Below are positions 2,608-30,993 of a stretch of 54,869 bases of DNA, one piece after another (the first letter of the stretch is position 1; each line of letters starts with the position of its first letter). A program made the translations under genes and the position numbers. The DNA comes from a virus, in the IMG/VR virus record IMGVR_UViG_3300023109_001295, positions 1 through 54,869 of that record; one strand, written 5' to 3'. The notes under the pieces are model-generated. The model did not search any database, was not told where the DNA came from, and saw nothing but the letters and a program-made list of their open reading frames with translations.

Positions 2608-3339
2608 ATGAAACATAAAATAATAGGCCTATCTTTATTATGTATGTTTTCTTTCAATGCATTTGGGCAAGCAACAGACGATAATGAAATTAACATCGAC
2701 CAAACCGGTGATACATTAACGTTATACATAGACCAATACGGATATGGTAACAAGATTGGACTAAACGACTTTAGTTCTTCTTCAACACCAATGACTGTAT
2801 CAGGTTCTTCGTTAACGATTAATATTGACCAGATTGGTAATGAGAATTTATTATTCGGTCCTCTGATTGCAGATAGCTCAACTTACAATCTTCTTTTTAC
2901 AGGAGATAGTAATTCTTATGATTGGAACATAGGATATGTTGGTTCTTCAGACACTTCAGCAATAGATGTTGACTTTACTGGTGATTCAAATACTATGGAC
3001 TTTGACCAAGGCTATAACGCAAGTGCAGAAAGATTAGATATGGATTTGACATTAATCGGAGATAGCAATATCTTTGATGTTGACATAGATGTAGATGACG
3101 CAGTTTGGAACTTCGATATTACAGGTGGTTCTAATAACATTAACACTATGCAGAAGGATGGTGGAGAACAAGAGATCAATGTAACGTTGGTCGGTGATTC
3201 TGCTGACATAGATATCAACCAAATGAGTGGAACCTGTGCAACAGGCGTAACCACTTGTAATGGTATCATCACACTCGATGTGGATTCTGATAATGCAACT
3301 ATTCAAATCAATCAGAAAGATTCAGCTAACGACAGCTAA
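2608..3339 (+). CDS. curlin-like repeat protein, secreted (subunit 1)
   Basis: 243 residues. A signal peptide ends near FGQA (about residue 22). The mature part is a series of curlin-like strand repeats rich in Asn, Asp, Gln and Gly: INIDQTGDTLTLYIDQYGYGN, LTINIDQIGN, then several hydrophobic-GDSN-xxDxD units. The last part has a cysteine pair (TCATGVTTC) and ends IQINQKDS. Such repeats are typical of CsgA/CsgB amyloid subunits, and the gene directly follows csgG. AAGGAA precedes the start. It is more acidic than E. coli CsgA. Probably the exported fibre subunit or nucleator; amyloid formation is inferred, not shown. Confidence 0.8.
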   Translation: MKHKIIGLSLLCMFSFNAFGQATDDNEINIDQTGDTLTLYIDQYGYGNKIGLNDFSSSSTPMTVSGSSLTINIDQIGNENLLFGPLIADSSTYNLLFTGDSNSYDWNIGYVGSSDTSAIDVDFTGDSNTMDFDQGYNASAERLDMDLTLIGDSNIFDVDIDVDDAVWNFDITGGSNNINTMQKDGGEQEINVTLVGDSADIDINQMSGTCATGVTTCNGIITLDVDSDNATIQINQKDSANDS

Positions 3340-4450
3340 GTTTCTACTGTTAGGCTCCATTATAACTTTACCTCTTGAAGTTATATCAAGTCAAATAGGA
3401 GAAATTGTAGAATCGAAAGGTAGTGGGCAAATTGTTCGAGAGGCTGGTAATAGTATCAGCCTCTCAGACAGTCCCTCAATTGAATTAAACGATACTGCTG
3501 AAACAACAAACGGTCGTATGCTAATTGAGTTTTTAGATAAAGCTGAACTCTCACTTACAGAACATACGAAAGTATACATAGATAAAGTATACTACGATCC
3601 TGACCCAAGCAAGTCAAAAATGACAATGCGAATGGCATTAGGCACAGCACGCTTTGCTTCAGGTCGATTAGGAATGGTCAATAAGAATAACATTGACATT
3701 CAAACTCCCACTGCATCAATTGCAGTTCGCGGAACAGATTTTACAACAACGATAGACGAGCTTGGCAGATCTCTTGTCATATTATTACCTGACGAATTTG
3801 GAAACCCTTCTGGTTCCATTACAGTCTTTAATGATGGTGGAGAGATTGTATTGAATGAAGCGTATGCTGCTACAATGGTTTCTTCAATGGATAGTCCGCC
3901 TACAAGACAAATCACAATGGTTGGAATAACACCAAGTATGATAGACAATATGTTTATCGTATCGCCTCCTCCTGAGGTTAGAGAAGCAATAGACGAACAG
4001 TTAGCAGATGATATGAATGCAGATCAAGGAATACTTGATATTGACTTTTTAGAGTTTGATGGATTAGATATTGATTACTTGGAGGACGATGCGTTAGAGT
4101 TCACAGAGCTTGACATTGATTATTTAAATGTTGATTACTTAACTGATGTATTAAATGTAGTTGAGGCATTAATCTCTACAGCAGCAAGACTTGACGATAG
4201 TGCATTAGCTCAATCGTCTTTAGGAGCAGAATTAAAAGGTGCAGCCTTTGGTTTAAATTTAGATTCGCAATATAATGTTTATGAACAGGACGGTAAGGTA
4301 GTATTCTATCGTTCTGTAAATGAAACGATACAAATCATGTTAGGTTCTAATGCAAGAGCAACACTACGAACAACAGTAGACGGATACGAAGGTACTATAT
4401 TATTAAACGGTGGGGAAGACACGATTATTGAATTAAGACAGGGTGGATAA
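3293..4450 (+). CDS. FecR-domain exported protein
   Basis: 385 residues from ATG 3293, chosen because it gives a clean signal peptide (basic start, then KFLLLGSIITLPLEV). It overlaps the curlin gene by 47 bases. A FecR domain spans about residues 35-170, with GRMLIEFLDKAELSLTEHT and IQTPTASIAVRGTDF, the typical end of this fold. A later acidic region (about 246-286) repeats DIDYL-like units. FecR domains sense or bind ligands in the periplasm; FecR proteins often sit next to CHASE2 cyclases, and one lies downstream here. It may monitor curlin export or envelope state. Confidence 0.8.
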   Translation: MQLFKSIRKIQLTTAKFLLLGSIITLPLEVISSQIGEIVESKGSGQIVREAGNSISLSDSPSIELNDTAETTNGRMLIEFLDKAELSLTEHTKVYIDKVYYDPDPSKSKMTMRMALGTARFASGRLGMVNKNNIDIQTPTASIAVRGTDFTTTIDELGRSLVILLPDEFGNPSGSITVFNDGGEIVLNEAYAATMVSSMDSPPTRQITMVGITPSMIDNMFIVSPPPEVREAIDEQLADDMNADQGILDIDFLEFDGLDIDYLEDDALEFTELDIDYLNVDYLTDVLNVVEALISTAARLDDSALAQSSLGAELKGAAFGLNLDSQYNVYEQDGKVVFYRSVNETIQIMLGSNARATLRTTVDGYEGTILLNGGEDTIIELRQGG

Positions 4451-27682: not shown

Positions 27683-27886
27683 TTAATATAGTTCCAAGTC
27701 TAGTTGTACAGGCGCGTCTTTCTTAAAGAACATACGACCTAATTCGTCAAGTTCTAAAGTAAATTTGTCGCCAGGTTCGAACGAAGTAGTACTAATTCGT
27801 ACCATGTGAGTTTCGTCAGGATCTGGTTTATCAATAAAATGTAAACCTTCTGCCGAAATTCTAAATTTAAAGTCACAATACATCAT
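27683..27886 (-). CDS. small phage protein, unknown
   Basis: 67 residues, beta-rich (CDFKFRISAEGLHFIDKP). Two adjacent ATGs at 27886 and 27883 overlap the upstream stop. No domain recognised. Confidence 0.55.
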   Translation of the reverse strand: MMYCDFKFRISAEGLHFIDKPDPDETHMVRISTTSFEPGDKFTLELDELGRMFFKKDAPVQLDLELY

Positions 27887-28296
27887 CTTGCCATCTCACT
27901 TATTTCTGTTGCTTCTTTTTGATTCATAATTGGAACTGCATTTGATTTATGCATCGTAGCAATACCTTTTACGAGTGTACCCGTGTATTTGGGCGATTCC
28001 TTTTTAGTTCCATGACCACCGCCACCTGTAGAATGACAAGAAGGATATTCTGGTACTTCTCTACGAAATGTATCGGTTGGTACAAATGGTTTAAACTCTT
28101 TGCTAGGTTTTACTTTACCTAAACAATAATTTATATATTCATCAACAGTGTCGTACCTTAGATCATACATACCACTACGTTTCATTGCTTTGTTGTGCAG
28201 TCGCCAATTAAGCTCGTATTGAGCCATTTTAGCTTTAGTGATTTTAACTTTACGTTTCCGAGTGGAAATCGTTGATAGACCTCTTGCTAATGCCAT
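27883..28296 (-). CDS. conserved phage protein, unknown
   Basis: 137 residues starting MALARGLSTISTRKRKVKITKAK, very basic at the N-terminus; HSTGGGGHGTKK and NQKEATEISEMAR occur later. GGAG precedes the start, 25 bases after the structured RNA 28321-28476, which may form part of its leader. Possibly nucleic-acid binding. Confidence 0.6.
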   Translation of the reverse strand: MALARGLSTISTRKRKVKITKAKMAQYELNWRLHNKAMKRSGMYDLRYDTVDEYINYCLGKVKPSKEFKPFVPTDTFRREVPEYPSCHSTGGGGHGTKKESPKYTGTLVKGIATMHKSNAVPIMNQKEATEISEMAR

Positions 28297-28320
28297 AATA
28301 TAAACTCCGTCAAAAAAGGG

Positions 28321-28476
28321 TGAAACAGTGGTCGCTTCTTTGGCGTTCCGTTCCTACTCAGTATGTCGGTAGTTCAGGTGTTGCTCCCGAAGGCAGTTCT
28401 CCGTCATGGGTCCTAAATGGTAGAGCTATTAACTCCGTGATTCCATCTCGCCGTCGTGGTTTATCCCACCGTTTCA
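28321..28476 (-). ncRNA. GC-rich structured RNA (leader element or stand-alone small RNA)
   Basis: About 156 bases, clearly more GC-rich than the surroundings. On the minus strand UGAAACGGUGG (28476-28466) pairs with CCACUGUUUCA (28331-28321): 11 bp with one G-U pair, which would be an A-C mismatch on the plus strand, so the leftward RNA is the functional one. Inside are AGAUGG/CCAUUU enclosing GGAG/CUCU (28448-28415), a C-UUCG-G tetraloop near 28390, CUAC/GUAG (28372-28354), and GGCG/CGCC closing the inner part. An early promoter (28483-28511) places the transcript start at the first stem; a run of six Ts (28317-28312) follows the last strand. I could not match it to a known family. Confidence 0.65.
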
Positions 28477-28482
28477 AATATA

Positions 28483-28511
28483 ATTATAACAAACTATTTT
28501 CCAAATGTCAA
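28483..28511 (-). promoter_or_regulatory. early promoter of the structured RNA
   Basis: TTGACA (28506-28511) and TATAAT (28483-28488) on the minus strand, 17-base spacer. The expected start is about 28476, at the edge of the closing stem. Confidence 0.88.
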
Positions 28512-28525
28512 TAGTTTTTTTAAGT

Positions 28526-28822
28526 TTATTTATAGTGCCTTTGACCTCTACCGTTAAAAGCGTTTAATTCAGATGAAATCTTCTTCTGATGTCTCTTAAT
28601 GGCTTCAGCCTTTTTTCTTTTTCTTTTCGCAGTAGGTTTCTCGTAATACTCCCTTGCTCTAAGTTCTTTTAAGATTCCTGCTTTTTCAACGTTCTTCTTA
28701 AACTTTCTCAATCCTATATCAAACGGCATTGGTGTACTCGGCCTTTTATCTTTAGGATGTCTTGGTCTTGGTGTCAAATCGACTGATAAGCCACCATTTC
28801 TATTATTGTTATTATTTCTCAT
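28526..28822 (-). CDS. rpsU: ribosomal protein bS21 homologue
   Basis: 98 residues. [46 protein letters not shown] follows the bS21 pattern closely (host proteins are about 70 residues). bS21 sits at the 30S mRNA exit region and helps initiation. An extra N-terminal stretch of about 31 residues, Asn- and Pro-rich, comes before it if the ATG at 28822 is used; an internal ATG at 28732 would give the usual length. The ATG at 28822 lies 6 bases after TATAAT with no SD, suggesting a leaderless mRNA. Phage-coded bS21 is known from marine phages. Confidence 0.88.
28527..28534 (-). promoter_or_regulatory. T4-type late promoter box
   Basis: TATAAATA on the minus strand at the end of rpsU. A late transcript from here would carry the structured RNA as a leader before 27883-28296. 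Confidence 0.5.
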
Positions 28823-28863: not shown

Positions 28864-29376
28864 TTATGATTTATTTTTAGCAGCCAATTTTGCAGCAGCT
28901 TTTTCTTGTTTCGCAATTTCTTTATCATATGCCTTTTGATCTACATAACCGTTCTCTAAAAGCTTTATTCTATTCAACATGTGTTGTGCTTGAGTATCTT
29001 CTTTGGATCCACCGTAGTAAGGAACACAATGACCTTCTTCAGACATCACTGATGTAACTGGTCTCCATCCATCTGTTGTTGGACAGTAGACATCAAAGTC
29101 TCCAAGGATACGACCGAACTTGCCTTTCATATCTTCGCCGTTTCGAGCAACTTGAGTTTTTAATACTGGACGCTTACCTAGTAATTCTTTTAATCTTTTA
29201 CTTGCAGCTTTACCAAATAACTTTTCTACTTTATCGCTTGTTCTTGATTCTGGTGTATCAATTCCCATGATACGAACTCTTTCGTTTCGTAACCAGATTC
29301 CAAAGCCAAGATCAATATCGACATCAACGGTATCGCCGTCAACTACTTTAATTAAATTTGTTCTATACTCGTACAT
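28864..29376 (-). CDS. thermonuclease-like (SNase) nuclease
   Basis: 170 residues. IKVVDGDTVDVDI (Ca-binding Asp region), VRIMGIDTPESR (catalytic Arg and Glu), KFGRILGDF (second Arg) and EEGHCVPY are the SNase signature. No signal peptide, so it probably acts inside the cell, for example on host DNA or in phage DNA processing. Its start overlaps the iscU end by 25 bases. The C-terminal tail is Lys/Ala-rich. Confidence 0.88.
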   Translation of the reverse strand: MYEYRTNLIKVVDGDTVDVDIDLGFGIWLRNERVRIMGIDTPESRTSDKVEKLFGKAASKRLKELLGKRPVLKTQVARNGEDMKGKFGRILGDFDVYCPTTDGWRPVTSVMSEEGHCVPYYGGSKEDTQAQHMLNRIKLLENGYVDQKAYDKEIAKQEKAAAKLAAKNKS

Positions 29377-29753
29377 TGTTGTTTCTTCCTATAATCGTTT
29401 ACCGCAGTTTTAATTGCATCTTCCGCTAATACCGAACAGTGGATCTTAACAGGTGGGAGTGCAAGTTCTTCTGCGAGTTCAGTGTTTCTAATTGTTTCTG
29501 CTTTGTCGATGTGGATACCTTTGACCCACTCTGTAAGGAGACTGCTTGAAGCAATTGCTGAACCGCATCCATACGTTTTAAAACAGGCATCTTCTATAAC
29601 GCCGGAGTCATTAACTTTGATCTGTAATCGCATTACGTCACCACATGCAGGTGCGCCTACCATCCCAGTTCCTACAGTAACATCTGTCTCATCCATCTTC
29701 CCTACATTTCTAGGGTTTTCATAATGATCTATTACTTTTTCACTATAGGCCAT
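29352..29753 (-). CDS. iscU: IscU/NifU-type iron-sulfur scaffold protein
   Basis: 133 residues from ATG 29753. YSEKVIDHYENPRNVGKMD is the IscU opening; VGAPACGDVMRLQI, KTYGCGSAIASSSLLTEW and PVKIHCSVLAEDAI carry the three cluster-binding cysteines. It would assemble Fe-S clusters, using host IscS. A short leader ORF (29743-29796) with a strong SD overlaps its start, and iscU itself has no good SD, so coupled translation is likely. A late box at 29819-29826 lies upstream. In E. coli the protein is 128 residues. Confidence 0.9.
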   Translation of the reverse strand: MAYSEKVIDHYENPRNVGKMDETDVTVGTGMVGAPACGDVMRLQIKVNDSGVIEDACFKTYGCGSAIASSSLLTEWVKGIHIDKAETIRNTELAEELALPPVKIHCSVLAEDAIKTAVNDYRKKQQCTSIEQI

Positions 29754-29796
29754 TAGAATCAACTTTTGTTGATGCCGTGTTAATTGTCTCGCTCAT
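29743..29796 (-). CDS. 17-residue leader peptide overlapping the iscU start
   Basis: ATG 29796 follows AAAGGAG at good spacing and encodes MSETINTASTKVDSNGL. Its stop lies just past the iscU ATG (29753). It may carry ribosomes to the iscU start, which lacks a clear SD. It contains no run of Cys codons, so classical attenuation is unlikely. Confidence 0.45.
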   Translation of the reverse strand: MSETINTASTKVDSNGL

Positions 29797-29818
29797 GCTC
29801 GACTCCTTTGTATAAGTA

Positions 29819-29826
29819 TATTTATA
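29819..29826 (-). promoter_or_regulatory. T4-type late promoter box
   Basis: TATAAATA on the minus strand, between glyA and iscU. Would drive iscU and the SNase gene late. Confidence 0.6.
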
Positions 29827-29832
29827 CTCAGA

Positions 29833-30993
29833 CTACCACTGAGAAGGATCCTCTAAGATAGAAACGATTTGATGACCAAGCTCAATCCATTCTTCCTTTG
29901 TTTTGCCACGAGTTGTTTCTGCGGCTGTACCAATACGAATTCCACTTGTCTCTTTAAAGTTTCGAGGATCGTTAGGAATACCATTTTTATTTACAGTGAT
30001 ACGATGTTTCTCTAAGATATCAGCTGCTTGTCTTCCACTCAATTCAGAGTTAACTAAACTTACTAATATAATATGAGAATCAGTACCACCTGATAATACA
30101 GATAGAGTATCGCTGTTATGTAATACTGCTGCTAATGCCTGAGCGTTCTCAACTACCTTTGCTGAATAATCTTTAAACTCTTCAGTATCAGCTTCAACGA
30201 ATGCTTGTGCTTTGGCAGCAATGATATTCATTAATGGTCCGCCTTGAGTACCTGGGAAGATTGCTCCATTGAGCTTTCTTGTATAGTCAGGATTGTTCCA
30301 TAATATAATTCCACCACGAGGACCACGTAATGTTTTATGAGTTGTAGAAGTAACAACATCGGCATAAGGAACAGGATTGTCATATACACCACCGGCAATT
30401 AAACCAGAATAGTGAGCCATGTCAACCATAAGTAATGCACCTACTGAATCAGCAATTGCTCTGAACCTTACCCAATCAATTTGTCTTGGATATGCACTTG
30501 CACCAGCAACGACAATATCAGGTTTGTGTTCTTGTGCCAATCGAGCAACTTCGTCGTAATCAATTAAACCGTTTTCATCAACACCGTAAGTATGAGCATT
30601 AAACCATTTACCTGAAATCGTAACTGGAGCTCCATGAGTTAGATGACCGCCACTTGCTAAATCCATTCCAAGAATTGTATCACCTGGATTTAAGAATGCT
30701 TTATATACAGCAAGGTTTGCGTTTGCTCCACTATGTGGTTGAACATTAGCAAATTCACAACCGTATAGATCTTTGAGTTTATCAATAGCCAAGGTTTCGA
30801 CTTCATCCATAAATTCGCAACCGTTATAATAACGAGCACCTGGATATCCTTCTGCGTATTTGTTTGTAAACTCTGAACCACAAAGTTTCATAACTGCTTT
30901 CGAAGCAAAGTTCTCTGAAGCAATTAGTTCTGTGGTTAATTTTTGGCGTGATAGTTCTTTTTGGTAAATCTTGTTAATTCTTTCATCTAGCAT
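29833..30993 (-). CDS. glyA: serine hydroxymethyltransferase (GlyA)
   Basis: 386 residues, slightly shorter than the usual 415-430. [35 protein letters not shown], and [13 protein letters not shown] with the PLP lysine (K220) are diagnostic. It makes glycine and methylene-tetrahydrofolate from serine. Methylene-THF feeds ThyX, coded nearby, and glycine feeds the ALAS at 33770-34972. Own promoter at 31115-31143 inside the glutaredoxin gene. Confidence 0.95.

Follow-up and report, generated by a model that had tools for sequence, protein, structure and literature searches.

The stretch of DNA analysed here (henceforth the window) comprises 54,869 nucleotides of a virus record. On its minus strand, a gene for a phage ribosomal protein bS21 (28526..28822; PF01165, E = 4e-17), with its own promoter matching the consensus at 12 of 12 positions (28857-28829), lies upstream of a structured RNA of about 165 nt delimited by its fold and its homologues (28312..28476, U tract included), which is followed by the gene for C0, a 137-residue protein assigned to phrog_27048 (27883..28296). 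The RNA has a sigma-70 promoter of its own, TTGACA-N17-TATAAT (28483..28511, minus strand), that agrees with the consensus at all 12 positions and so places the +1 at about 28476, the first base of the closing stem P1. Folding and arm swapping (see below) identify both strands of P1, UGAAACGGUGG on the 5' side (28466..28476) and CCACUGUUUCA on the 3' side (28321..28331), which form 11 consecutive base pairs on the minus strand, one of them a G-U whose plus-strand counterpart would be A-C. Next come CCC and six Us (28317-28312), which together with P1 make a terminator-like 3' end. The G+C content of the RNA region is 0.46-0.48, compared with mostly 0.31-0.42 around it. A preliminary description of the locus had pointed to the minus-strand-only stem, the promoter starting at it, the six Us and the GC-rich composition, and all four held up. 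About eleven perfect TTGACA-N16/17-TATAAT promoters, an unusually uniform early-type set, lie on the minus strand of the window between 9500 and 28857, in the part of it scanned for promoters (9.5-29.4 kb); the perfect promoter of the RNA gene is real, yet nothing special within this phage. Near bS21 there are also two auxiliary metabolic genes, encoding a NifU-like protein and a serine hydroxymethyltransferase (29352-30993).

Folding energy by itself is weak evidence for such an RNA: the minimum free energy (MFE) of the window copy is -40.4 (z = -1.9), a value equalled in 9 of 200 shuffles. The decisive evidence is comparative. Homologues were sought with nhmmer in loci fetched via bS21 and C0, most of which contain the RNA, and further lineages came from pattern scans independent of these two genes. 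In IMG/VR contigs the family comprises about 40 full-length sequences that differ from one another, plus nine minimal members, the contigs being fragments, many of them near-identical, and the E-values of the models built here being rough. Strong matches occur once per record, and the carriers are many uncultured, mostly marine phages.

In the comparative fold, full-length members are three-way junctions: P1 closes them, and two arms extend from it. Arm A (28401..28465), defined by covariation of P2a in the full set and of P2a and P2b in the minimal set, is a rod with two symmetric internal loops. In the window it consists of J1/2 GAUAAA, P2a (CC at 28459-28458 with GG at 28402-28401), a 5x5 loop ACGAC/AUGAC (AYGAC/AYGAC family-wide), P2b (GG at 28452-28451 with CC at 28409-28408) and an exchangeable hairpin, P2c (28446-28417). 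P2a can be read directly in its variants GC/GC (L057, L203), UC/GA (L034) and AC/GU (L188), and UG variants of it occur as well. The P2c position holds a 30-nt hairpin, AUGGAAUCACGGAGUUAAUAGCUCUACCAU, short GNRA-type hairpins or one long hairpin, and AUGGAAUCACGGAGUUAAUAGCUCUACCAU (window 28417-28446, minus strand) is identical in the distant window, L057, L099 and L203 with short or long hairpins elsewhere, as if P2c had been exchanged like a cassette. Arm B (28333..28395), defined by covariation of the full-length set, comprises P3 (28395-28389/28338-28333), P4 (28384-28383/28344-28343), a 3x3 GAA/GAA loop, P5 (CUAC/GUAG, 28372-28369/28357-28354) and the apical loop CGACAUACUGA (28368-28358), into which a hairpin is inserted in some members. 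Two details of the preliminary description gave way to this fold. The CUUCG at 28391-28387, taken for a UUCG-type loop, is no tetraloop, its CUUC pairing with GAAG (28338-28335) in the covarying P3. The GUGG/CCAC hairpin, thought able to disrupt the closing stem and act as a switch, can form in the window, yet about half of the minimal members have not retained it, and the covarying P2a explains its CC better. The comparative fold has -21 kcal/mol compared with -39.7 for the MFE in the nearest-neighbour model, so that loop contacts have to be assumed. MFE folding was rejected as proof, since z is only -1.9 and its helices other than P1, P2c and part of P5 contradict the covariation.

Covariation among homologues, proposed in the preliminary description as a check, was found in both sets. 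In the full-length set (28 sequences, with related sequences counted as independent), 94.6% of cells are paired, 10 of 16 pairs show double changes, and 45 cells are double-changed compared with 11.3 in shuffles (none of 500 as high); pairing falls to 21-55% once the partners are slid. By helix, this set supports four of six pairs in P3, all four in P5 and one covarying pair each in P2a and P4, while P2b is invariant and draws its covariation from the minimal members. The minimal set is 97.5% paired, with double changes in 12 of 14 pairs and 37 double-changed cells (12.4 expected). RNAalifold on the MAFFT alignment missed P1 because its 5' arm was misaligned, and P1 was therefore assessed by arm swapping and in the minimal set, where it covaries: when its arms were exchanged among relatives, the native total was reached in none of 10,000 permutations, relatives again being counted as independent. 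Support by covariation is strong for P1, P3 and P5 and thinner for P2a, P2b and P4. Unconstrained MFE folding of five minimal members gave the same P1/P2a/P2b core in outline.

The family is built of modules, with arm A in all members and arm B added in most. The minimal members (L158, L187, L221, L236, L240, L241, L243, L248 and L258) have no arm B inside P1 and follow, with small deviations, the consensus P1-GAAUWGG-CC-AYGAC-P2b-loop-AYGAC-GG-UAACGAA-P1. Arm A only is seen in L187, L188, L221, L240, L243 and L258, L188 retaining it on a long P1, and the L158 type carries an arm-B-like unit downstream with a separate closing stem of its own. L048/L117 bridge both types, having UAACGAA as well as arm B, and L225 has lost the core and consists of the promoter and the P1 hairpin only. 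Family members range from 60 to 190 nt in length, and P1, 9-18 bp long, is their most variable sequence yet always paired. Ten pattern matches in a scan of genome contigs yielded two copies, L209 and L214 (FZLS01000017.1 and FZLS01000007.1), of the L110 and L121 types in 'Rhodobacteraceae bacterium Water_Bin34'. These are probably phage contigs binned with a Rhodobacteraceae metagenome bin, and they give a weak hint at the host.

Conservation by protein coding alone, which the preliminary description had named as one outcome that would count against an RNA, was ruled out: no frame is open across relatives, and the lengths of the 28 RNAs are evenly distributed over mod 3, their differences not being multiples of three. 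On the comparative evidence, the locus is a genuine gene for a small, intricately folded RNA whose shape is kept by compensatory changes. The impression that it resembles none of the known phage or marine motifs (glutamine riboswitch, manA, wcaG) was borne out, as no Rfam 15 covariance model, those of GOLLD and ROOL included, scored above the gathering threshold in the window or in the minimal members. A lax Rfam search of the window returned only S774, at 27 of 48 bits and driven by A/T-rich upstream sequence, and manA, wcaG, glnA and PhotoRC were absent even from these lax matches. The vrRNA of VIPR systems was considered and rejected, since it needs 9-16 tandem GGYNN repeats and the longest GGYNN run here is 1. 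BLASTN turned up no RNA homologue among GenBank phages, the matches listed in the first search being to the promoter stretch, and no convincing copy was found in the isolates HTVC008M, PhiW-14, Melnitz-1, ACP17, BUCT-ZZ01 and C48C1. Model R2 found zero copies in 385 genomes of the class of the Rhodobacteraceae bin (G026), a search informative for minimal members only, since R2 rates full-length members poorly (9.4 bits for the window).

The RNA is carried in bS21/C0, epimerase/C18 and tRNA contexts alike. The order bS21-RNA-C0 hardly varies in the S21/C0 lineages, in a sample drawn using those same genes, and in the window lineages the bS21 gene is adjacent to the RNA or 3-10 nt before it. L057, L061, L099 and L153, where RNA and bS21 are fused, have the order bS21-RNA-promoter-C0. 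Relatives of C0 occur in Delftia, Acidovorax, Methylophilales and Synechococcus phages, and those in L062-L069 have plain promoters and lack the RNA. An epimerase or small membrane protein gene lies upstream, and C18 (MKWLATALFL...) downstream, in L107, L110, L121, L125, L182 and L188 (epimerase-promoter-RNA-C18 in L107, L121 and L125); C18 is constant in this lineage, while the upstream genes vary. The RNA precedes a 447-residue gene in L158, L187 and L221, and is found at tRNA genes in L016, L236, L241, L243, L250 and L258, in the order promoter-RNA-tRNA in L016, L236 and L250. In L258 the RNA is followed by a second sigma-70-like promoter and a boxA-like GCUCUUUGAAAA leader ahead of an array of 16 tRNAs (L258:640-1255). 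Between minimal RNAs and tRNA genes (or C0) we also observed apparently non-coding, hairpin-rich blocks of several hundred bases (L279 rc 3300-3645 (G010), L241:14312-14590, L281:2695-2950 and L258:641-1255), which are possibly further phage ncRNAs; part of the L279 block recurs in L214 (104 nt, 81% match) and, over a short length, in L107, both near tRNA genes. Separately, L256:1060-1520 (minus strand) holds a tmRNA with the ARAGORN tag ANDNFAPSGFALAA, matched in Rfam by permuted tmRNA and alpha_tmRNA.

Outside the bS21-fused lineage, a promoter resembling TTGACA-N17-TATAAT (10-12 of 12 positions) ends 5-14 nt before P1 in nearly all copies, a score of at least 11 being reached at 14 of 3000 random positions. 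No such promoter was found before the RNA in L057, L061, L098, L108 and L153, where bS21 ends shortly before it. Copies with a protein gene downstream carry the U tract, and it is absent in L236, L241, L243 and L258; L016, with a tRNA downstream, keeps a weaker one.

The locus has its own promoter and 3' end, is non-coding and has a conserved fold, as befits a small-RNA gene, and we think it probable that it encodes a trans-acting phage small RNA, abundant and forming a ribonucleoprotein (RNP). Driven by the strong sigma-70 promoter, transcription would begin right at the 5' strand of P1, and P1 would close the molecule, with arm A and usually arm B hanging off it. The sequences strongly suggest that the 3' end is made by P1 and the U tract in copies ahead of a protein gene and, because most tRNA-linked copies are without a U tract, by tRNA processing in those ahead of a tRNA. 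Such an RNA would act in trans, and its invariant loops (GAAUWGG/UAACGAA, AYGAC/AYGAC, GAA/GAA and CGACAUACUGA), which suggest a binding partner, may be where the ribosome or a protein of host or phage binds. That its role is related to translation is a guess from the neighbouring bS21 and tRNA arrays. The coreless L225 and the energy gap between the comparative fold and the MFE weigh against the trans-acting reading.

A cis-acting leader is the first alternative to weigh. As a riboswitch or protein-responsive attenuator, P1 with the U tract would terminate transcription before C0, C18 or another gene, and a ligand or protein on the arms would set the read-through. The order promoter-RNA-terminator-RBS-gene in the window and several lineages is what such a leader would show, as are the position of the RNA, in several lineages, directly ahead of a conserved gene that has a ribosome-binding site, the constancy of C18 beneath changing upstream genes and the aptamer-like look of the conserved loops. 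However, C0 is served by a separate promoter past the RNA in the bS21-fused copies, C0 relatives have promoters and no RNA, the downstream genes are unrelated between lineages, and most tRNA-linked copies are without the U tract. Nor was a conserved antiterminator found (P1 has 9-18 bp, the rival hairpin 3-4). A riboswitch or attenuator would be expected to have a conserved alternative structure and one downstream gene or pathway, but the GUGG/CCAC alternative is missing from about half of the minimal members, and the downstream genes differ as stated. We regard a leader as unlikely. A trans-acting RNA accounts better than a leader for the varied neighbours, the promoter set at +1, the single copy per record and a 3' end formed by P1 with the U tract or, presumably, by tRNA processing.

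More doubtful still is an RNA that binds phage or host bS21 and tunes the free protein, as OLE RNA does in Halalkalibacterium. The proximity of the bS21 gene in the window lineages and the precedent of bS21 binding OLE RNA (PMC12054373) speak for it, but searches with PF01165 found no bS21 at all in the RNA-bearing records checked that have none adjacent, including contigs of 221, 195, 108 and 100 kb (virus records can be partial, and the host may supply bS21), no conserved SD/anti-SD duplex was found, and the sequence of P5 varies. We give little credence to a put-like antitermination RNA, in which, as in HK022, the nascent RNA would bind RNA polymerase past the promoter and make it read through later terminators. 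The RNA does begin at the +1 of strong promoters, sometimes before tRNA arrays or long co-directional runs of genes; in many lineages, however, it is ended by its own terminator-like U tract, elsewhere it lies at the end of the bS21 transcript right before a new promoter, and in L258 the second promoter with the boxA-like leader comes after it. Model R2 gave only weak matches in HK022 (25-40 kb; best E 0.38) and no clear one in its early region, although an analogue need not match. That the RNA is a mere strong hairpin at an mRNA 5' end or terminator, with a functionless core, is very improbable: L225 does retain just the promoter and the P1 hairpin, and P1 varies most in sequence with its pairing always kept, but invariant internal loops and compensatory changes in the arms across lineages require a function of their own.

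Carrying the trans-acting small RNA further, we tentatively entertain a new phage RNA machine, an RNP with arm A as its core and arm B as an option that might target the ribosome or RNA polymerase of the host as the phage takes over, in carriers of roughly 100-220 kb and amid unrelated neighbours. The few structured ncRNAs known in phages are joined here by a family not described before, whose fold is well supported and whose history is modular; its carriers are large uncultured marine phages, and models R2 and R3 can be used to find more members, also in cultivable phages.

Known systems resemble the family in part. Like manA, wcaG, glnA and PhotoRC, the structured motifs of marine phages and cyanobacteria (PMC2864571), it is a structured marine or phage RNA. 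With HK022 put it shares a promoter-proximal, structured phage RNA and differs in its terminator-like end and its placement after bS21. OLE RNA, a structured bacterial ncRNA bound by bS21, is likewise linked to that protein, here through gene neighbourhood only; OLE is bacterial and about 600 nt long, whereas many of the phage carriers are without bS21. ROOL and GOLLD are phage-encoded structured ncRNAs without an assigned function, often near tRNA islands (PMC12286853), and some members of the present family similarly head tRNA arrays; ROOL and GOLLD, however, are much larger than its members of 60-190 nt (GOLLD exceeds 800 nt) and assemble into nanocages. Of the known kinds, structured phage ncRNAs near tRNA islands come closest, and among them the RNA described here is neither ROOL nor GOLLD but a new family.
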